DNA from: Owenia fusiformis
Taxonomy: Eukaryota > Annelida > Polychaeta > Sabellida > Oweniidae
Length of the DNA stretch: 64,000 bases
Direction: 5' to 3'
NCBI GenBank assembly: GCA_903813345.2
Contig: CAIIXF020000012.1
Coordinates: 13,438,932-13,502,931 of the forward strand
Each line of letters begins with the position of its first letter. The first letter of the stretch is position 1. Both the position numbers and the translations under genes were made by a program. Positions 8,166 through 50,200 of this stretch are shown in pieces. A model generated the notes under the pieces. The model made no database searches. It saw nothing but the letters and a program-made list of their open reading frames with translations, and was not told where the DNA came from.

Positions 8166-8244
8166 TACAATACAACATATAGTTCAGCATCTGATTTATG
8201 TATTTAAAGGAGATAGCTTACAGAACCACAAGTAAATACAAAAA

Positions 8245-12770: not shown

Positions 12771-12848
12771 TACAATATAATACAGTTCGGAATCTGATTT
12801 ATTTTTTTAAAAAGAGATAGCTTACAGAACCACAAGAAAATCGAAAAA

Positions 12849-16826: not shown

Positions 16827-16903
16827 TATAATACAATATAGTTCGTCATTGGATTTTTTTTTTTTTAAAGAGATAGCTTACAGAACCATGAGCAAATCCA
16901 AAA

Positions 16904-23249: not shown

Positions 23250-26200
23250 CTGACTAAGCCCTAGTTTATGATTATTCCTTTCAACTTCTAGCAAAGCAAT
23301 CAGTTGTTCTACATTTTCTTTCTCATCTTCTGTGTTCATCTTGGCATCCACCAACACACCAAATCTTCGCACAAATTCGGAGAACTGCATATGTTCAGGG
23401 AAACCTGCAAGTAGCAATATGTCCATATAAGGGATGATGGTCAAATGTTGATAGTTGTCGAAGAATAAGTTGATTTACAAAAAGGAGGGTCCATCTCTAT
23501 TGTTTGAATGAACTACCTGATTTTGTACACCCCTGATATATGCTGTTTCTTATCAGAAACAACATAGAAATCTTATATCACATCTGCATAAGAATAAGAT
23601 TTATCAGATGCCTTCCAGCCTGACCAGATCTATAGGCATACTGATCAGCACACATTGATGACAATAGTGAAAGTGTGATCAAAACAGGGTTTCACAACAA
23701 GGCAATAATATGAAAAAGTATCTGACCACCAAGAAATGTGTAACACTTGTTACAGACACTGATGCCGAACAAGGACCAGAAAATATGATGGCTTAAACAA
23801 AGTGAACAAAACTAACCATAACTTTAAGGAATCATATTAATCCAGTGTTTTACTTTTTGGCAGTCATATTTTACAGATCTTTTATCTCTAACATCAGGAG
23901 ATAAAAAGAGGTCACTGTTTTTAGGACAATTGATTACCTTGTCTGTGTATTCTGATGACATCTAAGATCTGTGATCCCCTAAGCTGGTTTCTAAGAAGGG
24001 GAACATTGAGGACGATATCATCTTCCGTCTTTGCCACTACAGGGGTCTTCAAATCACATAGGCCAGCATTGTGTTGCGGCAGAAGACAATGCACAAAGTG
24101 ACTTGTACTTTTGCGTAGAGTATCCAATAGGGAGTCCTAGAATGAAACACAATGATTAACTTAGTATATTGGGCAATTAGAAATGACTGTAAATGCAATA
24201 AATGACTGTAAATTATTTGCAAGGCTGTAATCAATCATTTTTACAGGAAATATATCAAATAATGAAGGTTACATTTAAATGCATGATTAAAAGAGAAGAC
24301 ACTGAAAATTAATACCTTTATATGTGAGGGATCCAGTAATAAAAGAAATCTATTTTTTCTTTAAAAAAAGATGTCGCTGAAATTCATATTTACAATAGAG
24401 GATCCTATTTAATAATAATAAAAACACCTAATTTCTTTTAAAAAATATGTCACTGAAAAGTTTGATATGGAAAATGTAAAAATATTAACATGATTCTGTA
24501 GTGTTCTCTGATTGATTAAATGCAAAACTTAAATCGGTCTTACCCAGAGGAATGTGTAATAGCCAGTAACAAGGATATGTTTGGCATTCACTCAATTTTA
24601 GGCTCATTATAATAAAGGAGATAAACTTACCACTTGAAACTTCATTTGCAAACAGACTGAGCGACGTTTGAGTCCAGCAGTTCCTGTAGTGTAGGATCGT
24701 CGTAAACTTGATGTACGTCGTAAAGAGGATGTACCATCCATTCCCACCAGTGACCCTGTCATGCTGCTACTTGTTGGCCCTCGCATTGTGCTGAATAACA
24801 AGTTCACATTCTCTCTGAAAAACACATTTCCAATACTTAGTAAGGTATGTAAAACAAGGTATTGACCTGCCATTTGTTACAGATGCCACACGCTGACACC
24901 GAATACCAACTTCAAGACACCATCTGCTGATAACCGGCCACAAAAAAAGTTATATATTTCACAAAGAAATGGTGACATAACATAAATATCCCCTACTTAG
25001 TAATGTGCAAGAAAATATCTGTGGGGGAGGGGGTAAACTTTTATCTGACAGTGGAAAGAAATTAAAGTATAAATAACAAACTCCTCTCCAGAATTTGGCA
25101 ATTCATCAAGAAGACATTTGCAATTGATTTCTCTAAATACTTCATTTCTATGTGACCCTCTATGAATGAATCACATATGGACTTTAAGATTATACACGTC
25201 ATATACTCCTTTCTAAAGTAATCTAAAAGAGTATGAGTCAAAAGTAAATCTAGAAATAAATCTCTTTATGCACCTATAAAGAACAAACATAAAACAAAAT
25301 TGGTCTCTTCGTGCTTTTGGACCAAAAACATTTGTCTTGGTGAATAAATCGTGACTTCATTCATCAAGAGAATTCATGTCAGACTATTCTTTAAAACTGC
25401 ACTATAATATCTCCATAAATGCACTTTTTAATACATGTATCTCCAAAAATGATCAATTTTGGTAACATTAATAAAAAAAGATTGTTATCACCCTCACTGT
25501 GGGTTGCATGCAAGAGATTTTTCTGTGGCATAATTATGCATCCTTATATTATACATGTATATTATAGAGATTGGAGTTCAATAACGTGATTTTCATTTTT
25601 TGTTTTCAATATGAACGATCAAAGTCATGATGCAAGCTCTTACAAAAAGTGAAAAATACACATAGAAAATCAGAATGTAATTGAATCCTTTTGAACCAAC
25701 TTGATTGTGCCAAAGCAAGAATGTGCCTACATACACATATAAAAGTTTTTAACAAAAAAGTATTGAATTTAATGTTTATAGAGCATACAAGTAAAGAGTC
25801 AATGTCACGGTGGCCCAAACATTACGACAATGATGTATGGTTATGTATTTTCTTCGAAATGCCACATGTGACATGCACAATCTACATCTTATAACACAGT
25901 CAAAATACAACAAGGAAGTGTGATCTGGAAAAACAATATCACGATTATGTTAGTGCCATTGTAAAACAGATCCAGGGCTGGTAACATTTTGGAGATGCAC
26001 AAGAGAATGGAAAATTGAGAAATGAGCAAGGAATCCTCCAAATACAAAACAAAATCAAGCTTACAAAATCTGAAAATCTGAAAGTTCTTTAAAGAATGCA
26101 TGAACAAAATTGACAAGGATCACAATTAAGATTGGGGAAACAATTAAAATGGATTGCAAACTTTTCTTCAAACTCAAAAACTGTATGCTACAATCAATGA

Positions 26201-29200
26201 TGATTCTACTATGTATGGAAAACTGTGAGTATAATACAATGTACATTAAATATTAATCTAAAGCTTTTCAAAAAATGGTGTTCAGCAACACTTTTAATCT
26301 TCAGAGAAGAAATAAAAGTTAACCTTTAGTAAATCTTTCATTTTGTTTACCCTGAAATTAAATGTTATGATCAACTTTTATGCATTTAAGAGCATACTTC
26401 GGGTTTTTCTTTATAAACATCAAATGTGCCTATATTCTTCTCCAGTACCATACATACATAGTGAAAAAACTGTGGCAAAAACTGGAGAAGTACTACATGC
26501 ATGCTGCAGAAATGGCATGTTGAAAGTCAACAAAATCACCCGCAATATAACACACAACAAAAAAGCTGCATTCCAATTACCATCAGTGGATTTCTATGGA
26601 GATATTCTAGATGAGCCAAACTTCTTTCAATATCATGTTCCAGCTGTTAATGTAGATGATGATGATAAAGACCAAACAATGGAGGTTGATTATGGCTGTC
26701 TAAATGGTGAGACATTAGCAAGTTTAACTCCACACACCAAGAAATTGATTTTATCATTTTTGTGAGGTTCTTAAATATAAGAATTTGGGTCACAGCTGAA
26801 CAACTTATAAATCATTAAATACGTATTACTTGCAATTTTTAGATATCAACATAATTCGGCTTGGTGAGAATAAGACACTGGAGGGTTATAACCCTTGGTA
26901 CCAAATCCTTAGTCCAGATTATCCAAACGTTACCGTGGCAACAAGCAACATGACCTTCACCTGTGACATCACAGTCAAAGTTGGTACAATAATATTTGTG
27001 AATCTTGTGAGAGCACCACACCCTGGAAACATTCTCCTCAATATGGACATGGGTAAAAGCTATTTCTGTTTCTATTGTATATGAATCTGACCAAGCGATT
27101 GAATAATAAATGGTATTCTATATACAGCCGATCTGCAACAGTACCGTACATTACCGTTTTGTAAATGGAACTGTACAGTACCGTGAAATACGGTACAATG
27201 CAGTACCATAGACTAAAATGGTACTGTACAGTACCGTAAACACTGTATGGCACTATACTCCTACGGTACTGTATGGTACTATCTTAATATACAGTATGGT
27301 ACCGTGATTTTAGAGTGCAGATTGGGGGTGTATTCAGGGATATTCCCTGTATTTACCTCTAAAAGCAAACTTCAAAATGAACTTTTATGCATAATGTCTC
27401 AATAGCACATGTCTCAATGTTAATCGCTTTTTAAGGAAATACAAGTACAATGGTGAATTTCGTGCAGTGGCCTGATAGGCTTATAAAACAGTTTGATATA
27501 TATACCCTCCAAAGACAAAAAGCAACAAACGAAACTGTGTCTCTGAACTTCATAATTCCTGCAAGGAATAAATACATGTTTTGGGCCTCTGTGTCAGGTA
27601 TGTTAAGCCTTATTATCTGTATGTAAGGTCAAATTTGAAAACATGAGCGTTTATTATAAATGATTCAAACATGACCGTGCTCTATTCGAATTTCTCAACC
27701 AATCAGAATGCAGCATAGCCAATATAGAACGTTCTCTAATTCTCCATAGATGCACGGCCATGCTCTATTCAATCTGCAATTTGCATTGTTTTGAGTGACG
27801 TCACATCTCAGCTGCACATCTGGGGCTCTGTCCGGGGATAGCAGTTCTTTTTTACTCCCTCCGTAACTACTACTGTAACTATTTAACTATGGCTGACTTC
27901 CTTGTTTTGTATAAAATCTAAAACGGGGAGTAAAATAGAACAGCCCAAACAAATTCTAAAATTTTTCCGGCCAACTTCAGAATCTTGACAGCATGCGTAT
28001 TCTTCCTTCATGCCCGTTCCACAGACACGGCTTTTACTAATTTTTATGTTTGAATCGGAATACATAATGATAGGCCATTCAATATGGTGAAATTCAGCAC
28101 TCGTTGGACAGAATGTTAGTACAAATGCACTCACCTTCGGTTCGTGCTTTGTACAACATTCTGTCCAACTCGTGCTGAATTTCACCATATTGAATGGCCT
28201 ATCATTATTTATTCCTTAAATCATATGCACAGTTACTTCTGATAATGCATGCTTATGTTACTCACAAGGGTATATAAATAACATTATTTGAGACCTAGTT
28301 CGATGATGTTGACATTTGACCTTGAAAATTTACTTTTTAGACCTCATTTGGCCTTTTTGACCTTCTGACCTTTTGGCCTTGACAAATGTATCTTTTCATA
28401 CCTCATTTGGTCTTTTTGACCTATCTGACCTCAAGGTAAATCTATTTTCAGCTTACCCAATTAAAGAAATTGAATGTAGTCATACAAACTCATCACCCAT
28501 GTCCTACCCTCTCTGCCCAAGTGCACCAGATCCCCCTTCTACGGAAACAGATGAAGACAAAGATCCTGCTTCAACCGAAACAGATGGAGACAATGGAGAT
28601 ACCCAGGACAGAGAAAACAAGAAAGAAAGTACCATTGACAACAAAGAGTTCATTCTCATAATATGTGTCTCCATATTTGTTGCCACTGCACTGATTGCAA
28701 CCGTAGTTGCTGCAATATGTATCTGTAGAAAAAGGTAGGCAGTTGATGACAACCAATCAAAAATAACTGAGCCAAATTAAAGGCTTTTCAAAAACTAAAA
28801 AAACAGCGTGTGATTTTATTCAGCAATCAATCAGATAATTACAAAAACGTAATACTTTGAAAAAGAATTTCTCTAGAGAAGAGAGTATTATAAAATATTA
28901 AGACAATAATTAATATCATTAACGAATTTAATAATTTCCTTTTCAGTGGTAACAAAGCACCGTTACGTCCCAATTTGACAGAGCCTCCCAGTGTAGCAAC
29001 CCTTCAAAGAATGGAACAAACAAGTGATATAGGCCTGATGGATACTAATACAGAAGAAACAAGACCAACAGGTAACTAAACAGAATATTTTCTTCTAATT
29101 ATTTAGAGACGTAAATAAAAAGTAGCGATGGAAATGTGCTCCATATAAGGATTTTCCTATGACAGCACCAAGATAACAGATAATTGTAGTTGGGTTTTCA

Positions 29201-32200
29201 GGTTCTGGTGTTTTCAGGTACTGGCTTATTTGGATTTATCTCTAATGTTTTGAAATTTCCTTCAGTATCTGGATAGCATCCTTACTTTTTTAGGTATTAG
29301 TTTACCAGTGTATATTGTTTTGAAATGGGTTTTAAAATCCAAAAAATGATCCTACCTAAAATCAGAATTTTAGACAGAGTATATACAATCCATTTACTAT
29401 TTATTTGTAAAGGTGAAGTGTCTCAAACAACAGGTCATGACAATAAAGCAAATGTGGCAGATACAGACTCAGATAGCGAAGAAATATATCAGAACATCAT
29501 CGTCATGAGAGAGATGGAAATGATTAATAGTGAGAAGGCTAAATCTACCCAACAGGAGAACAATGTGCTTAAATACCATGGTCATCGAGACAACACTGAA
29601 TTTCATTTTCGAAATGAAGAAGATGAGAGTTTTCCAGATTTGAATGATATTACTCACAAGCAGGAGGGGGTTTACATGAATAATGATAATAACATGAATA
29701 ATGATTTTAACATGAATGATGATATTTATATGAATGCTGGACTTATTGATGATGAGCCACATGCCTACAAGGTTGAGAGAGATGAGATGAGTCCAAGCAT
29801 GGAAAACATCTTTGTTAACACAACAGATGAACTGAAACTTAAACTTCAAGCAAGAAGGATGATAAGTGAAAAAGAATAGTATTAACTCTAATTATCAGTA
29901 TTATGTCCTGTAATGATTTTGTTAGTAAACCAAGTGTTTTGTTTGAAACACAATAAAATCTTGAATCTTGAATCTTTACCATAGAAAACATATTGACATT
30001 TTTTGACACAGAATTTATACCAATGTGTATACTTAAGCAAAAATGTAATATGATGATTAAGTTGATATGTGGTATACATAATTTAGAAATTAACAACCAT
30101 GGTTTACCTAGAGAAAATAGGGAATGTAAGAAATGCAATAATAACTCATTAGAGGATCTTTATCATTTTATTATGGGTTGTGATAATTATGTTGATATCA
30201 GAAATATTATGATTGAGAATTTGATTAAGGAAAATCCTACATTTAAGAAACTTTCATGTGAGATATTATATAACATTATTTTAGGCATGGAGTTTCCAAT
30301 GAAAAATTGGGATAATGTTTTGATTATTTCATGTAAGAGTGTCTCAATTATGTACCAAAGAAGATTTTTTAGCTGATTTACTAATGTATCCATTGTTATT
30401 TTGGGTCTAAATTTTGCCTATGTATACATGACTTGTATAATTCATGATATTGTAATTGTCTAATTAGCATAAGGTATAGTGTAAGATTGTTTTAATTGTC
30501 AAACTATTCTTCAGTATTGGAGGCTAAATAAATAAATAAATAAACATTGTATCTATATAAACCTACAAATTAAGATGACAAAATACAGTATTGATATGGT
30601 GAACTGAATTGAACACATGTTTCTGTTAAACCAGTCATCAACAATTTCTGAAAATGTTACACATCATCAATTTAATGATGACGTTTTGATTGGTAACAAT
30701 TTAATTTGAAAAAAATATATAAACTTTTCTCTATATTATTTTAGAAAACACATCAGATACTTCTTTTGCTCTTGGTATCATATGTTCAAAATGAAATGAA
30801 ACATCTATCCAAACCTCATTGGAACAAAATGACATAAACACAACATGTTTAGGTCTCTCAATATTGTAATTGTTCAAAGGAAAGTTTAGTTGATTTAAAA
30901 AAGTATGTTGCTTAAGAAATAAAAAGTTTAATTTAATTTTCATCTATTTTGGAGAGTTTTGTTTTAATTTTTTGAACACTTTTTGTCAAATCAACTGAAT
31001 TTTCCTTTGTATACCTATTATATTGAGAGGTCTAAGAAAATGTTGTATATACTATTTTGTTCCAACAAGGTTCTGAAAGATATGTTATTTCATTCTCAAG
31101 AACTGGAAGAAAGGAACAAAAAACAATTGCACTAAAAATCAAAAAATGTTAACAAAAACAGTCATAAAAAATATATTAACATAATTTTTGCACTAAATTG
31201 TTGTCAATCAGTGGCCATTACATAAAGGAACATGTTTTTACAGAATGTTTTCAATAAAAGGTTTAAGAGACCAATCCAGATTACCAATCCTTTCAACCAA
31301 AGTGTAATATAATTGGAAAGGTCATATGATGATTTTCATTTTGTAAGTGTTTGGCATTTTTCATTGATATACAAAACTGCTAAAAAGGCAACAATAGAAT
31401 AAAAAATACAGCAACTTAATAGTTATTAACCAACAGATGATCTTACAAACAGACAGACAAACGAATGAACAAATGAACAATTTCTCTACATCCCTTTCAA
31501 GATTACTTCGGTGGGATAACAAAACTTGATCGAATTCGGGAATCTTTGAATATCTTTATAAAATCAAACTAAAAAGTCAAGATGACATCAAATATTCTTA
31601 GGGCAAAAACATTCTGTACATATATGATTCAAACGAAGTATTTGAGAGAATACAAACACTTCACATTTAAAGGAGCATCTCAAAAGTTCGATGTAGGATT
31701 ACTTACTGTATTTAAACAGTTAATCTGTGGCCCCCTCCCTCCTCATAACTGTGTTGAGAAATGTTGACATATGATATATAGCCCCGATGAATTCAGTGTT
31801 TTTCAAACTAGATCAGACCCTATTGACAAAACTTGGACTGAATTGATAGTCTTCAAAAAGCTCATTTTCAGATAATTTTGCCTTATTTTTTTCACATTTT
31901 GTTATTTATCGTACCAAAGTGCATTGAATTAATAAAGCACGCACTTACTTTATGGCTAATGACCCCTTCCCCCTCATTTATTTTTCCGGATGCTCCCTAT
32001 AGACCAGGCCAGGATGATAAACACACATACTAAGAATCATTTATAGCGAGCAACACAAACTCAGATTTAAATCAATCTTTTGAATGCTCCCTAAAATCCA
32101 GACCAGGAAGATAAATACACATACTCTGAATCATTTATGGCGAGCAACACAACACTCTGATTTAAACAGCTGTTTCTAGTTTTGAAGCTGACCATATATT

Positions 32201-35200
32201 AACAAGCTCAAATCAAATGTGGAATTGCCTGGGAGTTTTAAAATGAAATAAGTGTAGTTATACTTCAGGACGAAAACATGATATAACTTTTAGAGTGCAT
32301 ATTCTGATTGGTGAAGGTTAAACAAAAAACGTATACTCTCACATATTTTAAGAGTGTAGATAGTCTTACAAAGAGGACTTTCAAAAGAATTCTTGAAATT
32401 GAGAGGTTTATTGTAAGAAACCAAGAATTCCTTTTTAGTTACACTTAACAAAATCTTTTAGAAAAATATATTCAGAAAATGTTAACAAAGAAAAAGAAAG
32501 TCTTTTTACATTCCAATATTGCCCAAAAGAACATGGTTATAAAATACTGTATTATATGTAGTCTATATGAGGAATTATAGGAAAACGCAAAACAGTAGAT
32601 AAGTTTATCAACATATGCTATATGGCAATATTGTACTGGCCCGACAACATTCTGAAAATGCAAAAGATAATGGAAAATAAAGAAATGAGCAAAAAATGTT
32701 GTTCTTTAAAAATACAACTTATGAACCCATATTGAAAAGGACAATGAGGAAGATTGAGAAAAACGACATCAAAATGTACTCCAACAGTTTCTTAAATCTC
32801 AAAAACTGTATGCTACAATCAGGGATGATTCTACTATATATAGAGAACTGTGAGTATAGCTAAGTTTGGTGTTATTCAACTCTTTTAACATTATGTAAGT
32901 TAAACCCTTCTGTTAATTATGAAACAACTTAATGAGGATCAATTCAGGTATACATGATATTATGCCTAACAAATCAAAAAGCAAGATCGGTGTGAAAATG
33001 TTCATTTTTTATAAAATCGAAGAAAAAAATCTGCTAGTCATCCTACTGAGGTGAAATGCATCTGCATTCAAAACTCTTAACAATTCTTGTAAATAACGGA
33101 GAGAGTTTGGTCAAATATTAATTGGGATGAGCCACAGTAGATACTAACCAGACTCCATGCAGTGTATACTTCCAGAAAAGTCACACAGACAAAGACAGAC
33201 AATACCCGCTCCATCTGCAACTTCACTGCAGCCTGTATCCCTTTTAAAAATGGGCATGTGGTAGGGTAGAGTGTTTTTGACCAAGTGTACTGATTACATG
33301 CTAAATTCTGTTTCAGTTGCATATGCACAAAATTTAACAACTGCTAAGACAGGAGGATTGCTTCAAGCATGCTGTGGAGATGCTATGTTGAAGGCCAACA
33401 TATTCACCCATTTCACAACACATGACAACAAAACATTACCTCAATTGGATTTCTATGGAGACATTCTAGATCAGCCAAACAAACTTCACTATCTTGTTCC
33501 ACCTGTTCGTAGCGATAGCGAGGATGATGATGCTGATGATGATGAATATAAAGAAGAGAATAAAGAACAGATAATGGAGGTTAACTATAACTGCCTAGAT
33601 GGTGAGTCACAAGTATTCAATGAACGACCAATTTCAAATTTCAAACCACTTCCACAACCATAACAATGTGGCGATCATTTATCTTGGTAGTAAGGAAGGT
33701 AACATGAAAACTTCTCTGAAAAAATACAGAGGCCATGTGTGGACATGTGGAGAAATCCCATAACTGTTCATAAAAGACAATGAATAAAACTAAATGCTTG
33801 TTTTGCTGTTGGTTAGGTAATGTGTTATAGGATGTTGCAAATTTATTTAGAATCATCAGTGGCATGTGAGGATTTTAGAGGATATGTTTGTTTAGTTCTT
33901 CATGTGGCATGACGTAATTGGCATCAAAGATGATCAATACTTTTAAATACAAACGTATATGAGACTTAAAAGTCATTCAAAACTTAGATGCTTAATTAAA
34001 AATAATATCATTTGTACTTTCAAGGTGTCAACATTATTCGTCTTGGTGAGAATAAGACATTAAAGGGTGGCCGCCCCTGGTACCAAATCCTTAGTCCTGA
34101 TTATCCCAGGGTCTCAACGGCAAGCTGCAACCTGACCTTTAACTGTGACATCTCAATCAAGATTAATGAAACAATATATGTGGAACTTGTTTGGGTACCA
34201 AATCCTGGAAATGTTACATTTAAATTAGACTTAGGTAGGTAAAACAAGGCAATGCCAAATGTCGCCACCATTTGTTACAAACACCTTATTAACAAAGGAA
34301 TTGTGCCTCTGATTTAAACACAATTATATTTTCAGCTAACAGACTAACATGACTATGAATAATAACATACAGTATATTAATTTTATTTATTTTATCTAGT
34401 ATATTCATTATATTATACACCCCTAAAATGCAATCTGTTTCCGACGCCGTTTCATTGCCAAATTTTGACTGACTAGTCTTGTGGCAAATTTTGGTATCAA
34501 TAGGTTTCGGTGCCAGAACAGTGTCGAAACGGTGCCGGAACAGCGCCGAATTTTTCGATGCCGAAACGGCGACAAATTATATTGGCTGTGTACATCAAGT
34601 ATTAAAGGGTCATTTCTATTTCACAAATTGAACAAAAAAATAAGCATGCATGACCACCACTGTCTCACTAGCGCATGTCTTACATATTTCAGGGAATGAA
34701 AATACAATGAAGAAATTGCTGAAGTATCCAAATGACCTAAAGTGCCAGTTTGAACCATACAAACTCCTGAGTGGGAAAGCCACTTATAAGACTGTGTTAC
34801 TGACCATCAAAATTCCTTATGAAGATGAATACCTATTTTGGGCATCTGTGTCAGGTTAGTTTGGCCTTATAATTGGTATATTTAGACAAATCACAATAAA
34901 AAATGAATTCTTCAGTGGCCTCAGTTTAATGTACTTTATCTTAGTTCAAAACAGAGCTCATCTAGAGCATTGTGTAATTGCCTCTAGCATTGCAACAGTC
35001 TTAGCAATATTAGCAAACAAACATGGATACCTCATGTTCAATTGCTATGACTTTGTGGTAACATAATTTAAAATCGCTCTTAACCTTTCACTATCTTCAA
35101 TTACTCATGTAACCCAATGTATTATGTGATAAAATGATGTCCTAATTTTCATGAGGGTTTTGATGCAATGGAGTCCAAAGTTGGCAAGATAATTAAATTT

Positions 35201-38200
35201 ATTTTTAGCCAACGGGAAAATTGAAGGAATCAAATGCAGTCCGGCAAACTTTCCACCGATGTCATTCTCTCCATGCAACCAAAGTGCAACAAATCCCTCT
35301 TCAAGTAAATCAGATGAAGATGATGAAGATATCTCCTTGCCACCTAAATCATTCCCTCTATGCATGAAAAGACCAACAATGAATGAAGACAAAGTTGAAG
35401 TCCAAAAAAGAGATCATCCAGGGGAAATTCATCTCAGATTCCCAAGGTTTATCATCATAATATGTGTGTCCATAATCGTAGTAATTGTGGTGATTGCAAC
35501 TATAGCTGCTGTTATATTAACCTGTAGGAAGAGGTAACTATTTGACATAATAATCTTGGGCTTTATAAAATGGACTTTATGGCTGTCAGGACAAAATCAT
35601 TACAGGGTGGTCCAAAAAATGGAACATTTGAAAATTTAACTCAAAATCGCAATTCTTCCTCTAAAATGCACCAAGATTTTACTGAGTATTGTTCAGTCAC
35701 TTATATATTTGATGTAAAGTTTACAGGTGCAAACAGCAAAGTTAATGCATTTTGGACCACACTGTATTATTGAAGAACAGTTTCATATTGGTAACCCCTT
35801 ATAATGTTCATAAACAAGTAAAACACACAAGATCTCTTAGAGAGATAGAATATGTTAAATTCTAAGACAATATAATATGTACTTGAAAAATCTATTTTTT
35901 AATTCCAAACAGTTACAAAGTGAAAGTGCCTTCACACCGTTATTTGACCAGACCTCCTGGGATAGCAAGCCTTATGCGAATAGGGAGAACAAATGTTGAA
36001 GCTAATACATACAAGATTGATAATCAAACAAATAAAGACATAAAGACACACCAATAGCGAGATCAATAGTGCAAAAATAGTTTATTCATGGAACGAAGCG
36101 TGAAACTTTCCAGATATCATCAGGACACTATTCCCTTTGATTTAAGAGCCAGAGCCATTTTTGTGGTTCACTAGAATGACCGAAAATTGCAAATACCCCC
36201 TCCCATAAAAATCCTGGGGGAGGGGGAGGGAAGAATTATTTTTTTGTTGAATTTCTTTTTTGAATATGATTTAACTTCATTTTTAGTATGTTATTTTCAG
36301 TGTTTAAAAGCAATTTTCAAGATTGCATCAGTATTTCTCATGGATATTCATTGTTAAAGCCTGACCAAGGGCGACGCCCACTTTATCAACATGTTAAATA
36401 TACAAGTTAATGAGTCTTCTATTTTGAATACAATAATTACCTAATAAGGCTGAATAGTATTGATAAGATTAAGTCAGTTATTTATGTTAAAATGATAGAT
36501 GCTGTAAGTAAGTCAATTTCACTGTTAAAGGCTTGTGAAAGGCCACATCCTCTTGTAGATATAAAGATATGATAATATAGAATTCGCAATTAATGATACA
36601 TTATTTTGGCTTTTAATGAGAGCACTTTGACTAATTGATATAAGTTACCTTATTAAGTATCTTAATTGCAGTTCAAATATCCTATTTTGTGCATTTAAGC
36701 ACTTCAACACTCTATTATCATTATCACTGACTTAGGTGCCAAGTCCACACAAACACAGGGCAGTACATGCAAGATTGGCTTTAAAGCACTTGCATCTTTT
36801 TGTTGAGCATTGTTGTTTGCACCTACATTTTACTAGCATTTGGCATGCATCTGAAACTTGGGGCAATGTGTTCCACACTGGCACCCAAATCATTTTCCCA
36901 GCCTTTGTGGTAATGGATTCCCAACCCAATTGAAGGGAGGACTGACGTAGGTATAATTGGCCCCACAAATAAACTGCCTGGAATAGAACATGTTTGATAT
37001 GCTGTTGTAAAGCATGCAACTTATGTTGGTGGGATGCTCTCAATTTGATTTGTTTTCTTTGTGAACATTTCTTGTCTTGCAGCATTTACAGTCGTTTCAT
37101 TGTTGTCTCTACTGTATAAAATCACAACAAAACGTTCAATAATTGGCATAACTTTGGCTATCTTATTTGGATATTCAGCCAAAGTTTTAAGTGCATTTGT
37201 CAACTCGCATAAGTAATACAATGTTTCAATGCTGTTGTTTTTAATTAACCGTGGAATCCAGATGTAGTGTCTGAACCAGTGTGAGCATGAAATAAGGGGA
37301 GACACATATCCCTACCATGTCCAAGGGCAGCTGCCATTTCATGGGAAGTGAGATATCTTTAATTTTTCACCTTTTCCAAAACTATCTATTTTTGAACTTT
37401 GAGTTCTGATGATATACTGACTGCCAGACAGACAATATCAGTCTACTGTTCTAATCGTCAATGTGTTGTACCCAGACTTTACTGCACGGTGGATGTGCTT
37501 ATTCATGTGTTGATGGGGAAATGTCTTGAATGGGCATTGGGGGATATGATAATACATCTTACAAAACATTGTTTACATCATCTCTAATAAATTCCAATTT
37601 GATGGTAACATTGCATCTACCTTTGGGCACTGAACATGATCATATCCTGCAATTTGATTGGACATCATATACTGATGATCATGATTTTTAAATAAATTAT
37701 AAGTACACGAAAGAATGATAGTATTATGGGAGCTACTCACTTCTTCTGGACTGATATTGAGGATACAATATCTTTGTTTTCTAATGAGTAAATGTCATTT
37801 GATGTCTCCAGAAAGGATTTCTCATCTATTCTATGGTTTCTTATAATAATTTCACATTATCTTTGAATCTTTGTTGTATGCTTATACTTTGTTCATGATT
37901 ATATAGGTCTTCATCTTGATCATTAGTTATATAATTCTCAATTCAGTGATCAGCCTGGCTAATTCAGGGCCCCCAACCATTCACTAGAGTTGTCTGGTTG
38001 TCAAAGAGCCCTACCACTTGATTTATCTAGACTGTTATTCTGCTTGTGAACCTGGTCAGTAGCAATGGCTAAAAAGGTCCATCTTGAATTGGTAACAGTG
38101 AAGTAGTCTTTCGTGAAGGCTTCGTAGACTTCTGGATGTATTTGTTGGAGTTGTAGCATATCCCTTATGTGAACTGGTAATCAGCAACCATATTGACTGG

Positions 38201-41200
38201 AGATAAAGAGGGTAATTGCTCTCTCTGATAGCCCATACTTAGTTAAGGCACAGTATTTCGATTAGAATAATAGGAAACCAAAACTTGAAGACTGGTACAT
38301 TCTGTTGGTCAGCACACCATTCATCAAACTGTTAAATCACTTCATCATATAGATTCTAGACAGCTGTATATTTAGCATAGGCTCTCTTGAGAATTTAGAG
38401 ACTGCAGCCTGTGACTGTGGTGGCCCTTCTGGTTCTGGTTCAATCCATGAAAGATCGTTTAATAGCCTAAATGTTCAGCATATGAAAAGTGGGCGTCGCA
38501 CATGATTAGTCTTTAACAATGATGAAAATTAAAGAGAAACCATCTGGAGATAAAGAGGAAAATTCTCCTGTCATATAACCCTCACATAGTCAAGGCTCAG
38601 TATTTGAATTTGAATAATCAGAAACCAAAGCATGAAGACTGGTACATTCTGTTGGTCAGCACACCATTCATCAAACTGTTTAGGCACTTGGTCAGCACAC
38701 GATTCATCAAACTGTTTAGGCACTTCATCAACTAGATTCTGGACAGTTGTATCTATAGCATAGGCTCTCTTGAGGAGAATATAGAGACTTGACATACATG
38801 TACATAGAATAGTGGATACATGTTGTAGATCTGGGACATCCGTTGCTTGCTTTCTTCTTTCTTCTAAACAGGGGTGTGATATGTTATAAGCCTTTAAGAA
38901 GTCAAATTCTAAGATTAATTATAGCACCTAACATCAAAAAGGTATCTGGTGTTATCCAGAAAGCTGAAGTACATTCATTTGTTCAACTCATGATAAAGAT
39001 TCAATAACCTAAATGTTCAAGATATGAAAAGTGGGCGTCGCCCATGACTAGTCTTTAACAATGATGAAAATCGATGATAAATCATCTTGTTATGTTGCAA
39101 AACTTCTTTGTCATGAAAATGGCACACTGAAACTGCAGTATGACCATATTCAGAGAAATTTTTTTATAAAAAAAATTCCTAACTCTCCCCACCCCCACGG
39201 GATTTGGGGGAGGGGGTACTTACTAATTTTTGATCATTCTAGTGGACCACAAAAATGGCTCTGGCTCTTAAATCAAAGGGAATAGTATTCTGATGATATG
39301 TGGAAAGTTTCACGCTTCGTTCCATGAATGAACTATTTGCTTGTTTTCTTGCACTATTGATCTCGCTACAAGCAGGTAATTACATTAAGAAATACTCTGC
39401 TGTTTAAACAATTGATCTTTGCAGTTAAGCATGAGCTCTAAATAATGAATTTAACAATACAGTATACTGTATGAGAGGTATATACTCAATCCTCATTCAA
39501 TGATAAATCAATTATCATAAAGTGCAACATGTCTAAGTTATGTAATATTAACAGAAAAAAAATCAGTTCACTAAAGTTCACCTTAGGGGTAACTTGTCTT
39601 TCTCTCAATTAAGTCTCTTAGTTGACCACTATATTCTATTTTGACGTAAATTTTCAAATAAAAAAAGAATCTTCTTTCTTAAAAAATTGGCACATAATAT
39701 GGACTTGGTCTTTTGTTTTCTAAACAGGTGAAATATAATTTAATTGTGAACAGGTAGTGACCATAATGATACAATGGATGAAGAATCTAAGACAAGAGGC
39801 GGTGATAATGAATTACACGAGGCAGATGAAGACACAGACAGTGGAGAGTCTTATCAGAACGTCAATGTCATGAGAGAGCTAGAAATCATGAATAATGAAG
39901 AGACAACATTTAATCAACAGGAGAACAATGTGTTCAAATTCCAAAGCCAAGGAGACAACACTGAATTTCAAATTCAAAATGAAGAGAATGAGGATGTTCT
40001 TGAACTTCCCGAATCAAATGATGATATTAATCACCATCATTCAGGGGAGATAAATATCAATGATGAGATTAATAAGAATGAACAGGTTTATATGAGGGAT
40101 GAAGTTATGGATGAAGAGCCACATGCTAACAAGATGGATACTGCTACCAAAACCAGAGAAACATGTCCACCAGGTAATGACAAGGAATATATAAGCACAA
40201 ATGCCAAAAGGGAAAGGTGACTAAAAACTTTAAAGAAACTTTAAATAAGAAACTTTTAATAAGGAAATACTCTGTTGCTCAAACAATTACATGTATTTGC
40301 AGTAGAAAATGAACTAAACATAATGATTTTAGTATTTGGGTGTGTACATGTATAAATTAAATAATCAGTCAATGATAAATCACTTGTTATGATGTGCCAC
40401 ATTTTAAAGTTATTTTTACATCAACAGAGATATCACTTCACTTTAGTCCAGTTAAGGGGTTTGGTCGTAATGGTCCCTTTGGCTTTGTAATTTTCTCAAT
40501 TTACTTTCTTACTTGGTCAGTATGTTCCTTTTAAAATGAGTTTTCAAATCACAACGCCATATTTTAAAATCACATATAACATGAACTTAGTGTTCAGAAA
40601 TTTAAACAGGTTATTTACATTGATATACTATTTCTTTGTTAACAGGGAGCGACTGCAAGAATACAAGGGATGAAAAGTCTAAAACAAGCGGCCATGAAAA
40701 TGAAGCATATGAAACAGGCACAGACTCAGATAGCTATCAGGACACCTGTGTCACGAGAGAGGTGGAAACCATGAATAATGAAGAGGCTATATCTCTCAAA
40801 CAGGAGAACAATGTGCTTAAATATCAAAGCCATCGTGACAATAGTGAATTGCAAAATGAACAGGAAGAGAATGATCCTGCAATTCCAAATTCAATTGGTG
40901 ATATTAACAACCATCATTCAAAGGCTAAAATTAATATGAATGATGATATTTATACAGATACTGAACTTATGGATGCTGAACCGCATGCTCATAATCCTAA
41001 GGCTAGGAGAGATGAGATGATTCCAAGAGGACAAAACACTTTTGCTAACACAACAGATGAACTGAAAATGAAACTCAAAGCAAGAAAAATGCTGATAGAA
41101 AAAGACTAGCACATAAATTATTCATTATATAGAATCTTGCACAGATTCCATCTATAAAACATTGATGTGTAAAAGTTTAAAACGAAGATTACAACTTCCA

Positions 41201-44200
41201 ACCAAAATAAAATATTATTGTGAAGTTCATATAAAATGATTTTCATTTTGCAAGTGTTAAGTAATTTTCATTCATAAATTCAAAATATTTGAACCTTTTG
41301 GCCTTTGTTCCATCTAATGAATAATATACTTTTTAACTTTACAAACTCTTGAATTTCAAACTGTTGGGTACTGATTATCATTTCAAGATTTTAAACACAA
41401 GCAACTGATGTATGATGTACACTTAGATAGTACATGAACATATTAATCAAAAATAAATATTTAATTTAAATGATGTGAATTAAAGCAGAGAGAATGAAAC
41501 ATATGCAAAAGAAATGTTCTTTAATTTGACTGATTTAAGAAGTAAGATCATTCTCATCGTATATATGGAAGCACATATGCCAAAAGAGGAAAGACCAAAG
41601 AGTATTACAAAACACAGCGAAAGACTAGAGAACGACCTGAGTCATACATAACTTGCTTTTCTGCTTTGTGAAAATATCAGGACATTTTAATAGCACCAAA
41701 ATGATTCAATAACATGACTTTGCTCTTGTATTTGAATCAAGCAAGTCACCTTGAATACACATTCAAAGTCATTGTTAGTACTCATTCAACTTAACCTACA
41801 CTTAATAACCATAAACGAGATAATAGTCTATTTAAAAAAGTCTTTTGAAAGAGAGTTTATACTCCACAAGTTTCACATAAACCTTTGATCTAGGCTTTCC
41901 CAATAGCAGAACTGGAATGAGGTGAATCAGAATGCGACTTCCAAATACCCAGAATTTTATGCTATGCTAAGTACCTGTCACTTATTTCATTCAAACTCTT
42001 ATTGAAAGCAGTTTCATTACCAGCATTAAAACTGTATATCTATATGTCTTATTCAGAAAATATAATACCATGGTCCAGGATATAGAGGTTCAGGATATAT
42101 AAGTCATGGGCATCTTAACCTTATATTTTATATGTGCAAACAAATCATTCAATTGTGGTTCAAGACTGAAAATATTAAAGTTTTAAAACACAAATAAATC
42201 TAAAGAGCATAGCATACAATAGATATAAAAAATGTCATGACAAATGAAATAAATGGTTTGTAAAGATCTTTTTAAGTATAAACATTCAGAAATGTGAATA
42301 CCATTAACATTCAAAAGAATAATATTTTAAAAATAAAAAACATAAATCACTCATAAATACAAGGTTAGGAAGAACATATACATTTATGATGCGATTCAAC
42401 AAATCTGGAATTACAAATATAAATACATTAAAGATATGACTCAAAATGTAGCTTTATTACTGATAATATTACAAGTTTATTAACACAGAATAAGGTTGGT
42501 CTGTAGAGAGAGCCAACATTTTTTAAGCCAAAGAAATCAGAATCACACAGAAAGACTTAACAATTTTATAATATATAAATTTTAAACATAACAACAATTA
42601 AACAGAAGCTGTACATACCGAAGACTCATGCTAAAGGTACAAAAGACAAACAGATAAGCAATTAATTAAGAATACAAATTAAACAGACAGTCGCATCCTT
42701 TCACTCTTAGCAACAAGGAAGTTATATCTAAAAATGTTTTTCCTTTACATACAAAACTGTTAACAGTGTGCCCTGGAGATCACGATTTGGAATATACACA
42801 AACGAGTGCATACGATTTACCAAGTAATCCTCTAAAATAAACAAAATACACAAACCTGTATTTATTGTAAACTGTATATGATTAGAGAACTAAAGGAACC
42901 AAAGGTACAACAAGAGTAAATTTTAATCAAAGGAAAAAAATAATTAGGGGATCAAGTCGAGAACAAGATGAAATTGGATTATAAAATTATCTTGGAGCTA
43001 CAGAAGTTTATGCTACACTCAGTGATGATTCTACTTTGTACAGAAAACTGTGAGTATTAAACGATATTAAAAAGATCACATGTTAAAAAATAATTTTTGC
43101 ATGTATAAAATATGGTAGGTATACCACATTGTAAAGAACACATGCTCAAGAATAATGAAATCAATAAATTTGAGATATGTGTATATAAATTTTTACTCGT
43201 GTAACATTGTAAAGTTCACATCCTATAAAGCTGGGTATGAATCATATAACTTATGAGTCAGTTTAATTTTTTATGTTTGCATGTATAAAAACTGTGAGTA
43301 TACCACATTGTAAAGAATACATACTAGTCAAAGTTGGATTTGAATCATATTGAGTTTAATATTTTTTCAACTAACAAACAACCTTTTTTATTTGGGATTG
43401 TCGAGCTGGCAGAGAGGTCTTAAGCCCCAGCACGTTTGAGCTAGGCATATGGGTGCTGTAGTCACGCAGTTGCGAATTCGAGATTGGTGTGCTCCTTATA
43501 TGTTTCTTTTTGATCAGGTGTACTGATTACATACTTAAATTCTGTTCCAGTTCATTATGCAAATACTTTAATAACTGTTGCCAAGACGGGAGGAATGCTA
43601 GAAGCATGCTGTGGAAATGCCATGTTGAAGGTCAACAAATTCACACGCAGTATTACACATGACAACAAACGGGAGCCCAAAGATCAATTAGATTTCTATA
43701 GAGACATTCTAAATAAGCCAAACTACCTTCAATATAGTGTCCCCAGTGTTGCAGTTGATAGTGAAGAAGATGAATATAAAAGCCAGACCATAGAATTGGA
43801 GTATGGCTGTTTAAATGGTGAGTAACATAGCAATATATTCAAACTCAGTGGAACTCCTCTCTAAATGTGGCACTTTTCAAAGTATCCTGATGACTTAATG
43901 TTAATTGAACCTTTATAAAGAAACACCTTTGAAAGTGCAAAACCTTTCACGGTCCATTGACACAATGTCTATCAACCATCTGTAAGTGTAACATATCCCA
44001 TCAATGGAACAGTTTTAGTGGAATCAAAGGCATTTCACATACACAGGTTTATTAACTGAAGATTCCTCTGTGCAATCTTGAAAAGGAAAAGGAAACTAAG
44101 TTTTCATAGCTTTTGTATACGACTGTAGTGACGGACTAATGTTGGACAGCTTTTTTGGTGAAAAATCCAACATTAATGCATCACTGACAAAGGATACAGT

Positions 44201-47200
44201 TGTATTCGAAAACTATGAAAAACTTTTCTCAAGGTTAGAAAGAGGAATATTCAGTTATTATAGTTAGCACTAATCGATAAACTTTTAATATAATTTTAGA
44301 AACCTAAATGTTAATCATGGCTTTAATTTTTAGATATCAACATACTTCGGCTAGGTGAAAATAAGACACTGAAGGGTGGTAACCCCTGGTATCAAATTCT
44401 CAGTCCAGATTATCCTAATGCTACTATGGCAACAAGCAACATGACCTTCACCTGTGACATCAAAGTCAGTGTTGGAAGTTTCCTAGATGTAAATCTTGTT
44501 AGGGCATCAAACCCTGGTAGCATTGTCCTTACTATCGACACAGGTAAATGTTTAAAAAAAAATATTGTCGTATATGACTCAATAAAAAAAAAATAAGGCA
44601 AATTAGGGATGGGTCACTATGTGACATGTGAGTTAGTTGTTTGGCCAGACATTCAATTAATCAATTATTTCTGCATTCCTATAGAAATATATTTATTGTA
44701 CTTCTGACTGTGCACCCTGGAATAACATGTACTGTCATTATTTACAATTTACAGCCAGCACTTGCAAATGCGAGTGTTGGCTGTCGGATTAACCCATTAA
44801 TTTGCATAAATAAAAATGTCATTTTGAAGTTGAAAAAACGTACAACCCATTAGTAGACTAATAGTGATCATGTGACTTTGATGCCAATTTTACAAGTTTT
44901 GCATTGATGCGCATGTGCCACATCATTAACCAGTATAAATTGCTGCTAAAAAGGCAGGATAAACAGTTATTTAGGTTAGCTATTGAGTTTGACTTGATAA
45001 CTTGCAGGTACCAGGATGCATGACAGGTACTATTCATATGTATGTAAATGAGTTGGTCATTAAACTGTAATCAAACTGGTAGCTGGCAGTTGCACTCGTG
45101 AATGCTACCTTAAAGGAATATTCCTTGCCAGACCCTTTCTCTCTTGATATGGTAGCTATAATCATATATATAGTTTCCATATTTAGCAAAACATGGGAAA
45201 ATGTTTTAATATGATCAATATTGATCATTTAAAAATCTAGTAGTGCTTATTTCCAGTGAGCTGCCATCTCTTAAGATTTCTTGCAGGAAGTGATGTCATC
45301 AACTCTCAATTTCTATAACCTTGCCCATAACAGTATAGGAAAGTAGCACAAAATCACTTCTAGACAAGTGATCATTACTTTTTGTGCAAAAATATTTTCA
45401 GGGCTTGTCAACTTAGAATAAAAGAAGAGATTTTCAGAAGGATTAAATAAGATACAAAGTTGAAAAAGAATATTTAGCTAGTTTTGTAATTCTTTATAGC
45501 TCCTCACCTAATACTATATGCAAAGTTGAGTCGATGACATCACTTCCTGTGTGAAATTTTAAAAGATGGCAGCTTACTGGAATTGAGCATCACATTTCTA
45601 AGTGACCAAATTTGACCATATCAAAACATTTTTGCGTGTTTTGCTAAACATGGCAAGCATATATATGGTTATAGCTACGATATGAGGAGAGAGATGGTTT
45701 GGCAAGGAATATTCCTATCCTTTAACCTCTTATATATTACATGTATGCCTTAACATATTCACTGTTACCTAGGAAATAAAAGTACAATGAATTTGAAAGA
45801 ATGGCCTGATTCTCTAGATCTAGTGAGACAGTTCGAAACATCGAATCTACTGAGAGAAAATGCAACAGATGAAACGGTATCTCTGAACTTCGATATTCCT
45901 GCTGGAAAACCATACATATTCTGGGTCGCTGTGGCAGGTATATCCTATTTTGTTTTGCAACAACTCTTTTAATATTCTGCAAGGGATGTAAGGATCAATT
46001 ACACGATGCCCATGTCAAGCAGCGTGCCTAATAGGCACGCAGTTTGAAACTCTGACAAACTGCGCGCATATTTCAAAATGTGAGACGGGGAGGACACGAC
46101 TCCCAAAGAGCCAAAATACGAAAAATACAAGGTTTGTCTCGTTCTAAAGATAGTACCATTCTGTGAAGATGAACTTAATTTACTCATAGTACTCAATGTT
46201 TTTCCCGATGTAAACCTAGTTATCTCAATATAAGGGTCTTAAGTAACTTCTGTGTTCAAAATTTACAGTGTAAAGTTATATCTATGTCTTTTTATCGTCA
46301 TTTGCCGTTTATTCAGCCATTGTGTCTGTGTATGCTAGAATATATAGGATCACTCCATCTGATTAAAACAGCAAAATTTGTGTTCAAAACGATAATACGC
46401 CATAAACGTGATTTAAACATTTTTCTTGTCAAACTGCGCGCCTATATTCACATGTATTTCCCAAACTGCGTGCCTAATATTTAAAAACTGCTTGCCTATC
46501 CAAGCTTGTTTTGTATTATTAGAAAACATAAGCGCCATACAAGGCACATATGTGTCTAATAGTAGAACTCCATAATTGAAACACTATGAGAGTCCATCCA
46601 CCAAGATGGTGATCTGAAAATAAATGTTTTTTTCGTTCCCAACTTAATTGTCACTTCTATTATACATTTTGACTTTCAATATGAAAATCTCATAAAATCT
46701 GACGATAAAGCAAAATTTCCAAAGCTACATCGAAAACACCTACACGTACCTCTGTAGAAATTCCAATGATAATATGTAGTTTTAATAGTGTATGCGCACA
46801 GGTTGTAATTTCTGGCTAAAATAGGCGCGCAGTTTGTGGTTTATTTCTTTTTAATCTCCTGATTATCTGTTTTATCTCGAAATATTTTGAATTAAACATG
46901 ATAAATGTGTAAGGAATTAAATATAAAACGAGTCTAAAGTATTTGTCATTTATGTTTAAAGTGCTAGATCGATTTACGTATAAATTCCCATTAAATCAGT
47001 GACGAAAATGCCATTAATCTGCTTATGTTTTAAAACTAAGATTCATTTGCACACAGTTTTTGCTAGTATTTGCAAGATTTGTATATTCGCCACAGAATGA
47101 ACGCATTGAACAAGAAAACAATGCAGGATAAATGTCTTTAAATAACGTTTCAAAATATAGACTCCAACTTAAATGATCCAATGTTCTTAGGCACGCAGTT

Positions 47201-50200
47201 TGTGATCGAAACAAACTGCGCGCCTAAGTAGCAGCTTGACATGGGCACTGTGAATTATACAAGTGATTTCAAAATGGCATAAGTACATAACAGGTTTACA
47301 AATATTATGAAATTGTATCCAATATGGTAGTTAGAATATTGGGTTCCATCTTTACAAAATTTAATTTTGACAAAATTTATATGAGCATAAATTTGTTATA
47401 TAATTTATGCCATGTAAAAGATGGAACCCTATATTCTACCTTTTTGATGTATTCTTACTATATTTGTAAGATTGAACGAGAAGGGTTTTTATTCCATAAA
47501 AGCAACAATCAAAGAGGTGATTCATGAGATGGGTTAACAAACAATGGGCTCTAAATGCAAAAAAAAATTGATTTTCCATAAAAGCAACGATCGAAGAAGT
47601 GATTCATGCATCCCTATCATATTATTGCATCTTCTGTTTCCAGCTCCCAACATTAGAAGAATCAAATGTAACCCTGTGACAGGAACACCCATGTCATTCT
47701 CCCCCTGCCCTATTGGAATGCAAGTGAACACTCCTACAATTAAAACAAGCAAAGAAGATAAACAATTGACCTCTGACCCCAACATGGTGCTTATTTTTGC
47801 AATAACTGTGACCATATATGGAAGTATTGCAGTGGCTGCAACAATAGCTGCTTTGGTATACATCTTTAGGAAAAGGTAGGGAATTGAAATGAAGGAATTG
47901 AAGTCTAGTTACAACCTACCTTAGACAAAGCTCTCTTAAGAAGCAAAGTTGAACAAATACATTGGGTTGAATTATATCTAAATTGTATCAAGAGAATTGC
48001 AAATATTTTAAAATGCTAGGAAAATGACTTTTACAAGTACATGTACTACATGGTACAATTATTTCCATATTCAATAGACGTTTCCGATAAATCGTGCCAT
48101 CTTTTGATCCATTAGGGAAACTATAAGTTATTGGCTAGATTGATGATGTCATTTGTTGTAGGTAGCAAACTGCCCATTCAAAAATGGTATTAACTTTTTG
48201 CTAATTTGTAAAAGTACAACCTATGACATCATCAATCTAGCCAATATATTGTGGTTTCTCTGATGGATCAAAAGATGGCACGGTTTATCGGAAACGTCTA
48301 TTCCTGTACAGTTTAAGGAAGGCCAGGACGAACAGCTTACCTCCTGGCGTAGAAGACCTCAGTGATACAGAGCAACCCAATGTGACCCAGAATTGTGTTA
48401 GAAACATGGACACAAGTGCTACTTCTCAATGGGACAATGTACATGTTGAAGGCTATTTGCAACCAGTTGATAGTCGTAATGGAAGATCTGGTCGATATGA
48501 TGAATTTGACATAACACAACCTAGGAGTGAGTACTTATATCTATGGGACACATAAGGTGCTAACTTAACCATAGGAAACAGCCTGGTTTTTATTTTGAGA
48601 ATTAGATTTGAACCTGGCATTAATTTTGTAACAATTTTTATGCCTGGCACAAATTTTGTTGCAAATTTATGCCAGGCATAAATTTTGTTCAAATCTAATT
48701 CTGAAAAAGTAGCATCCATATATCCCCACTTTTTGATCTACTCTCAAAACAAAAAACAGGCTGTTAGGACTTTACAAATATGTAAGCATACGTTCCAAAG
48801 GGGAAATCACCGAAACAGTATAAAGACAGTCTGAAAAAGGAAAATCTTTATTGTTCCCCTACCCCACTTAGGAATTATATTTACAATTCAAAACCCAAAT
48901 AGGATTGATCATTTCATTTACAATGAAGTTAAACAAAGATTCATTAAGAATATGAAACAATTTCTGATAAGAGTATAAAGAACCATAATGTAATTAAAAA
49001 TCATTTTAACCATGGAATATTAAATTAATTAACATGAATACGCATTTTTAAATGTTAATAACTATATAATCCACAGTTTTTTTTTGTTTTTTTTTTAAAA
49101 CTATATTTCAAGAATAAAACATATATACAATTATACATTATACATAGGCCTAATTACATTGTTTAATTTCTGTACAGTTTTTCTTTTTCAAAATAAGCAA
49201 GTATATTTCCAATTTTGTCGATATTGAAGATTTGTATTGCCCTCCTAGCTATTAAAACTTCTTTATAATCCACAGGTGATGCCTTTCAAAACAATGGTGT
49301 GTTACAAACAAGTTCACACAATAATGAAGCATTTGAGCCAGATTATTTGAATGAAGATTTCATCAATGATTTGAAGAAGATGAAACCTGAGAATCCTGGA
49401 TCAAACCAGGACAACAGTTTCCACCAACCAAATTCAAATGAGGACAATGTAAGCCTCCATTCATATGTGGACATTGGTGACCCTGCTAATTTGTACCACA
49501 TGCTTGGTGAAGATGATGATGTTGATGTTGATGATGAGCCTAATGCTTACAAACCTAAGGGTAAAAGGAATAGCAAGATGCCAAGTAGTGAAAACAATGT
49601 GGATGCTAGTATATCGGATGAACTAAAATTAAAACTCCAAGCACGAAAGATCATCAGTGAAAAAGAGTAGATATTTATGTGATATAGGAGGAACAATGTT
49701 AATTAAATGTAATTCTGAATGAAGACAAAAATAGGTCTCCTGTCAACTGTGATATTCCAGAGCAAAGTTCAAATGAGATGGTTTTCCTTTCGAGAGAATT
49801 ACAAAATCAGTATTGATCTATTTTAGATCAGGATGTCCATATTTTACTTAGCAACCCCAACATGGAATAGTATTCTATGCTGTCATCCTTGCTGTATATT
49901 ATGTTATACCATCCAGTATCCTTCATCAAGGTTTTCAAAATATACATATCCAAGTGTCATGTATTTACGATTTGCTATATAAGATAAATACACCTGTTTT
50001 TAGTTACTCATGAGTTGACACATGCCAGTAACTTCAAAATTAAAACTTTTATTGCAATATATTTTAAAGATAAAATGTTTCATCACTTAAATGTGTATAC
50101 AAGGCTTACCAACGATTGCCTAAATGGCAACGGTTAATCAGAAATATATTGAATACATTGTCAATAAATATATACAATATGTAAACAAAAAAAAAAATAT

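Follow-up and report, generated by a model that had tools for sequence, protein, structure and literature searches.

Three Probable SUEL-CUB Receptor Genes Nested Antisense in a MYO18A-like Intron of the Annelid Owenia fusiformis

Results

Three Paralogous Genes Lie within a Single Myosin Intron

The 64,000-nucleotide stretch of Owenia fusiformis DNA analyzed here (the window, to which all positions refer unless prefixed C9, C11, or C12) contains three paralogous plus-strand genes at 26149-49670. These genes, termed genes 1 to 3 or the trio, are situated antisense inside a 25,680-base intron of a minus-strand MYO18A-like (PDZ-myosin) gene (Table 1). We rebuilt the trio from splice sites and homology, which resulted in models with seven, eight, and seven exons, respectively (22 in total). 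The reading frames of genes 1 and 3 are uninterrupted from ATG to stop over their seven exons, the internal junctions have AG/GT save for the transposon cut in gene 2, and the start phases of exons 2-7 in the trio are 1, 1, 1, 1, 2, and 1. The blocks that BLASTN finds in common between the genes correspond to the exons plus flanking bases. Ratios of nonsynonymous to synonymous substitution (dN/dS), determined pairwise between paralogs by NG86, were 0.50 for genes 1 and 3, 0.58 for genes 1 and 2, and 0.51 for genes 2 and 3 over exons 2-5. A polyadenylation-like hexamer is present 32-97 bases beyond each stop codon, although this is weak evidence because the DNA is A+T-rich. The trio are protein-coding genes under purifying selection and not chance open reading frames (ORFs), in agreement with an earlier note on this DNA that had described three collinear plus-strand models of 22 exons, in frame except at the transposon. 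A genome-wide protein search produced 17 exon matches, all at C12:13465080-13488598 and within the window, and no further copy of the trio was found by this search, which can miss weak matches.

The same note had placed the trio between minus-strand myosin exons that join in phase, within a MYO18A-like gene, and both assignments are confirmed. The two exons bordering the intron have AG/GT flanks and join into one open frame. Myosin-head matches are present at 58192-59376, a PDZ match is on the host strand outside the window (C12:13509757-13510026), and coiled-coil-like ORFs, selected by a composition filter, are at C12:13420295-13425632. MYO18A has a PDZ domain, a myosin head and a coiled coil in that order, and all three parts were identified here, as separate matches that were not joined into one transcript.

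Table 1. Positions of the nested genes, their predicted domains, and the flanking host exons in the window.
Feature	Position	Strand	Details and evidence
Gene 1	26149..29879	+	7 exons, 527 aa; splice model, paralogy, dN/dS
Gene 1 exons	26149-26224, 26446-26706, 26843-27052, 27436-27597, 28452-28734, 28947-29071, 29413-29879
Gene 1 exon 2, putative degenerate SUEL/rhamnose-binding-lectin domain	26446..26706	+	model, fold search, profile comparison, donor position
Gene 1 exons 3-4, putative degenerate CUB domain	26843-27052 + 27436-27597	+	profile comparison (marginal alone), closing-intron position
Gene 1 exon 5, encoding the stalk plus the membrane helix	28452..28734	+	hydropathy maximum 2.9
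Gene 1 exons 6-7, predicted cytoplasmic tail with three YxN sites	28947..29879	+	
Gene 2	32774..41109	+	8 exons, exon 6 interrupted; splice model
Gene 2 exons 1-5	32774-32849, 33317-33601, 34025-34234, 34693-34854, 35209-35533
Gene 2 exons 6-8	35913-36054 (transposon next), 39754-40173, 40646-41109
Gene 2 exon 2, putative degenerate SUEL domain	33317..33601	+	row in modeled/profiled alignment
Gene 2 exons 3-4, putative degenerate CUB domain	34025..34854	+	profile comparison, closing-intron position
DNA transposon with terminal inverted repeats, in gene 2 exon 6	36055..39368	+	inverted repeats, empty-site frame, genome copies
Gene 2 tandem tail exons, both open	39754-40173, 40646-41109	+	
Gene 3	42968..49670	+	7 exons, 521 aa, ITAM-like motif in tail; splice model, tail motifs
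Gene 3 exons	42968-43049, 43551-43817, 44334-44543, 45773-45937, 47644-47875, 48312-48526, 49276-49670
Gene 3 exon 2, putative degenerate SUEL domain	43551..43817	+	row in modeled/profiled alignment
Gene 3 exons 3-4, putative degenerate CUB domain	44334..45937	+	profile comparison, closing-intron position
Host exon, downstream side of intron	24631..24814	-	AG/GT flanks, in-frame join with 50654-50495
Host exon, upstream side of intron	50495..50654	-	AG/GT flanks, in-frame join with 24814-24631

Fold and Profile Evidence for a Putative SUEL-CUB Ectodomain

The predicted product of each copy starts with a likely signal peptide, which is followed by degenerate SUEL and CUB domains, a stalk, a single membrane helix, and a tail that bears tyrosines. 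From the order of parts that had been proposed previously, the single helix and the tyrosine-bearing tails hold for each gene; the N-terminal signal peptide is plausible only, as it is short and weakly hydrophobic (best N-terminal 19-residue mean hydropathy of 1.0-1.6).

Structure prediction was run on contiguous exons, with both paralogs included in the input for exon 2. The exon 2 model is a five-strand beta sandwich with a mean predicted local distance difference test (pLDDT) value of 66.6. In a Foldseek search with this model, ranks 1-4 in the PDB were latrophilin lectin domains (probability 0.95-0.99). Similarly, among 997 chains aligned with the tool VIA, ranks 1-9 and 11 were latrophilin or rhamnose-binding lectins, with Z values of 7.1-6.1, which are in the range (<8) that, by the tool's own warning, can reflect a common arrangement. 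Ranks 10, 12, and 13 probably hold SUEL-like domains as well; rank 14 was a plant histone deacetylase domain (Z 5.3). We consider a SUEL/rhamnose-binding-lectin fold for exon 2 of the trio to be supported but not proven.

Profiles of the trio were compared with SUEL and CUB domains drawn from the same genome. Exon 2 scored 18.4 against the genome SUEL profile, over just 13 columns, relative to a best of 14.5 in 200 column shuffles, and exons 3-4 scored 19.2 against the genome CUB profile, in a match of 27 columns for which the best score in 100 shuffles was 18.9. Comparisons with the wrong domain scored 8.7 (exon 2 with CUB) and 11.3 (exons 3-4 with SUEL). Canonical SUEL-CUB genes are present on another chromosome, C11, and we assembled five of these with SUEL followed by CUB (L047, L048, L049, L050, and L052) as a comparison set. 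Pfam finds SUEL in all five at E 1e-5 or better (above the cut-off in L047 and L049), and CUB in every one except L052, three of the four being above the cut-off; the L049 CUB has 21.3 bits vs. a cut-off of 21.4. Genes of this type are dispersed on C11, for example at 12554490, 21764700, 22093461, 27106391, and 29495560.

Against this set exon 2 matched over 68 columns with a score of 22.9, whereas 150 shuffles reached 15.9 at best, and the wrong-domain cross scores were 11.1 and 9.5. A score of 35.3 was obtained when exons 2-4 were compared with the five SUEL-CUB ectodomains, the match extending over 116 columns and across the domain border (probability 56%, E 1.2e-4 for a single comparison). 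The controls for this match were lower, with bests of 22.4 in 100 column shuffles and 27.6 in 200 block shuffles, 14.9 for the reversed profile, 23.9 for swapped domains, and 12.1, 9.3, and 17.8 for decoys. The trio shares with the C11 genes the order SUEL then CUB and a similarity that spans the border between the two domains. We judge the profile similarity as weak but specific, and a CUB domain in exons 3-4 as supported but not proven, more weakly so than the SUEL domain.

Intron Positions Shared with the C11 Genes

The comparison of gene structures is independent of the alignment scores. In all three nested genes the SUEL donor is located 7 nucleotides past the last-cysteine codon (phase 1). 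A GT at this position was found in 10 of the 22 other SUEL loci with a readable end: six of the seven in a C11 group at 12.55-29.5 Mb (L031, L035, L039, L041, L042, and L044, the exception being L046 with its donor at +13) and four of the 15 loci outside that group, including two canonical loci at C11:5.17 Mb. Within the group of seven, no CUB was found for L042, and L044 was not searched for CUB. The +7 donor is also present in four of the five assembled C11 genes. The CUB-closing intron is four codons plus one base past the tryptophan or its equivalent in 3/3 nested genes and in 6/6 of the relative CUBs that were read, so that the nested genes have the SUEL-CUB intron position at both sites. 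In addition, the exon encoding the membrane helix has a phase-2 end in all three nested genes, as it does in L049, L051, and L052, the three relatives read.

There are also differences between the trio and the C11 genes. The trio CUB has an extra internal phase-1 intron that is lacking in L047 and L048, whose CUBs are each encoded by one exon, and while the CUB of the C11 relatives carries a CxC motif, the trio retains only its second cysteine. A membrane helix was located for some of the relatives only, and the end of L048 resembles a glycosylphosphatidylinositol (GPI) signal by eye.

Weighing the SUEL-CUB Assignment

Several results weigh against the assignment of the trio to the SUEL-CUB family. 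The SUEL profile PF02140, which has 33 matches genome-wide with none inside the window, gave no match to exon 2 of the trio, and the CUB profile PF00431 was without a match in the trio, with none in the window among the genome matches listed. Sequence searches of the trio against Pfam, NCBIfam, and the PDB returned nothing usable, even at E 10; the weak names that appeared (for example, COBRA, PTPS, NB glycoprotein, and Carot_N) were below the cut-off and inconsistent between paralogs, and were rejected. When the L050 SUEL-CUB protein was the query in a tblastn-like search, none of the 44 matches listed at E 10 fell in the window. The exon 2 models are of moderate pLDDT at best (66.6, 62.5, 42.5, 39.2, and 33.3 for the five), the best Foldseek E values were 0.12-0.14 with nothing at 0.001 or better, and exon 3 alone gave no fold (pLDDT 37). 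Exons 3-4 scored 24.05 over 30 columns against the five C11 relatives, just over the best of 150 shuffles (23.4). Of the single-gene scores against this set (26.8, 31.2, and 26.0 for genes 1, 2, and 3), those of genes 1 and 3 are under the block-shuffle maximum of 27.6, and the score for exons 2-4 declines to 23.7 without L047 (leave-one-row-out range 23.7-37.8).

These results would fit the trio being a new receptor family with an ectodomain fold of its own, whose resemblance to SUEL and CUB is due to chance or convergence: no curated model detects either domain, exon 2 was modeled with moderate confidence and exon 3 gave no fold, and the profile score hinges on a single row, L047. We regard this explanation as unlikely, however, because SUEL-CUB is where the fold match and the specific cross-scores agree with the order of the domains and the positions of the introns. 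The silence of Pfam is probably because exon 2 has kept only three of the eight SUEL cysteines. Hence, while the earlier note recognized no named family, the fold, gene-structure, and profile comparisons place the trio with SUEL-lectin/CUB receptors. Among the checks it had proposed, curated profiles were silent, and in structure prediction the exon 2 model aligned best with SUEL-type chains.

Lost Cysteines and the Expected Ligand

The nested SUEL domains have three cysteines each, as opposed to eight in the five assembled relatives and nine in L051, and so lack the eight-cysteine, four-disulfide pattern seen in mouse latrophilin-1. The lectin domain of mouse latrophilin-1 has four disulfides and the sugar-binding residues Glu42 and Lys120 (PMC2430599). 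The cysteine pair kept by the trio aligns with its core bridge, Cys50-Cys128, and there is no counterpart in the trio to bridges 41-71, 83-115, and 96-102. According to the same source, sugar binding by mouse latrophilin-1 requires Lys120 and the Glu that follows the first cysteine, and its authors favor noncarbohydrate ligands where a SUEL domain is part of a membrane receptor (PMC2430599). The first SUEL cysteine is absent from the trio, and the Lys position, eight residues ahead of the last SUEL cysteine, is occupied by glutamine in all three genes. Counterparts of Glu42 and Lys120 are missing from the corresponding alignment positions of the trio and of the six C11 relatives aligned, and for this reason we set aside a sugar-lectin function for the trio. 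Since the residues needed for sugar binding are absent, a protein ligand is likelier than a sugar, and the SUEL-CUB head most likely binds protein.

Tyrosine Motifs in the Tails

The gene 1 tail has three YxN sites, YQNI, YMNN, and YMNA (shuffle P 0.011). The tail of gene 3 has one motif of 14 residues, YVDI-x6-YHML, resembling an immunoreceptor tyrosine-based activation motif (ITAM; pattern used, Yxx[LI]-x6-12-Yxx[LI]), with a shuffle P of 0.0065. No ITAM-like motif was found in the tails of genes 1 and 2, and no immunoreceptor tyrosine-based inhibition motif (ITIM) in any of the three. These two P values are the lowest of 27 uncorrected tests, and we therefore treat the tail motifs as leads. 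By eye, the best-conserved tail element is the C-terminus, where genes 1 and 3 have the same 15 residues and gene 2 has a near match.

Selection on the Ectodomain and the Immune Explanation

The earlier note had compared the trio with immune and allorecognition loci. Hydractinia Alr and similar allorecognition receptors are clustered, single-pass proteins with ITAM-like or ITIM-like tails, Ig-like ectodomains, and extreme polymorphism. The tandem arrangement of the trio, its single-pass receptors, the tyrosine tails, and the one ITAM-like motif are in keeping with a lineage-specific immune or allorecognition cluster whose ectodomains are diversifying by selection, as is its likeness to such loci. 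Nevertheless, of the 20 single-exon dN/dS values (exon 6 of genes 1 and 3 was saturated), 19 are below 1, the sole exception being the 25-codon signal exon of genes 1 and 2, at 1.30. The lowest value in every pair belongs to an ectodomain exon, exon 3 for genes 1 and 3 (0.35) and genes 1 and 2 (0.49) and exon 2 for genes 2 and 3 (0.38). The high values are those of exon 6 (0.91 and 0.82), exon 5 (0.57-0.68), and, within the ectodomain, exon 4 of genes 1 and 2 (0.81). Nothing in this comparison of paralogs, which is blind to allelic diversity, points to diversifying selection on the outer domains, and "fast-diverging", in the sense of such selection, does not describe the trio. As, in addition, only three copies were found, the allorecognition proposal is without positive support here, and we consider an immune cluster quite improbable.

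A Transposon in Gene 2

Exon 6 of gene 2 is interrupted by a 3.3-kb transposon. Its first codon is an in-frame stop, so the gene 2 protein would end about 50 residues past the membrane helix. If CAA was duplicated at the target, the empty site restores an exon 6 that ends in phase 1, like those of its sisters, and a frame that runs into the tail exons; a 3-bp CAA duplication is therefore likely. A 2-bp TA duplication was rejected, since it would leave the restored exon 6 with a phase-0 end. Among the 40 genome matches scored (204 candidates) for the first 246 bases of the transposon, three full-length copies, including that in gene 2, are identical in score and a fourth is nearly so. These near-identical copies make the insertion look very young, and it may be polymorphic. 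The transposon also contains an ORF for a cysteine-rich CXC-type protein at 36732-37085 (-).

The interruption of gene 2 and the loss of most SUEL cysteines are consistent with the trio being real but largely silent genes that came from the C11 SUEL-CUB family, became trapped in the intron, and are decaying there. This is very doubtful, considering that no stop or frameshift interrupts the seven exons of gene 1 or those of gene 3, that dN/dS over exons 2-5 is 0.50-0.58, and that the tail exons of gene 2 are still open.

Other Features of the Locus

A second plus-strand tandem array is present at 8236-9192, 12798-13796, and 16892-17842, and also at C12:13437387-13438170. It consists of single-exon DUF1647-like proteins that are 89% alike (Pfam 22.5 bits, under the 25.7 cut-off). 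As the myosin motor exons lie on one side of this array and the coiled-coil-like ORFs on the other, it is probably also within host introns. In the same interval, on the host strand, C12:13429502-13431595 (-) has an open frame of ~700 codons that is low-complexity and N/D/S-rich. Elsewhere in the genome, at C9:37986009-37994334 (-), ~10 similar myosin-head exon matches (profile positions ~18-84) occur in a row, resembling genes with mutually exclusive exons. A minisatellite with ~20 copies of a 42-bp unit is at 21057-21891, with several frames open on both strands. ORFs for reverse transcriptases of long interspersed nuclear element (LINE) type, named by eye, are at 87-2618 (+) and 29972-30376 (+), the latter a short fragment directly past gene 1.

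Discussion

Based on these analyses, the trio are probably tandem duplicates of a divergent single-pass SUEL-CUB receptor, antisense in a MYO18A-like intron, which would bind protein and signal through phosphotyrosine. In this account, tandem duplication of one single-pass receptor gene would have produced the three copies, as divergent members of the family whose canonical members are on C11. Binding of a protein by the SUEL-CUB head would lead to phosphorylation of the tail and recruitment of SH2 proteins, at the YxN sites in gene 1 and the ITAM-like pair in gene 3. The interrupted gene 2 of the present assembly would give at most a receptor with a short tail, minus the tyrosine exons. The expression, ligand, phosphorylation, and signaling of the trio are all points that we infer, and a cell-surface protein receptor that acts through phosphotyrosine is, from the sequence evidence, the best working account. 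That the trio might be a lineage-specific set in which one SUEL-CUB head is coupled to differing outputs (an adaptor tail with YxN in gene 1, a truncated gene 2, and the ITAM-like tail in gene 3), with transcription opposing that of the host so as to form a myosin-tied receptor switch, we view as a long shot.

The trio does not represent a new kind of system, because its domains are known and canonical relatives are present in the same genome; rather, it is a strongly degenerate SUEL-CUB variant in an unusual position. The lectin domain of latrophilin (ADGRL) is the best fold match of exon 2 and is likewise a receptor SUEL domain, although latrophilin is a seven-helix G protein-coupled receptor with an olfactomedin domain, and mouse latrophilin-1 keeps the four disulfides, Glu42, and Lys120 (PMC2430599). 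EVA-1/EVA1C is also a single-pass receptor, and its SUEL domains are missing part of the sugar-binding residues; it differs in having two SUEL domains and, in the passages of the source that describe it, no mention of CUB (PMC2430599). EVA-1 is described there as a Slit co-receptor in C. elegans (PMC2430599). Full-text literature searches (MYO18A/nested genes, nested tandem arrays, allorecognition, and SUEL/CUB), whose coverage left most subscription journals outside, found no description of this locus, nor of single-pass SUEL-CUB receptors whose tails bear tyrosines.

The trio illustrates how a receptor can look like an orphan, with curated profiles silent, while its fold, domain order, and intron positions still point to its origin. 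To the receptors already described it would add a single-pass type that combines SUEL and CUB with a tyrosine-bearing tail, and it provides a natural case for testing for interference between a host myosin gene and the antisense receptor array nested within it.

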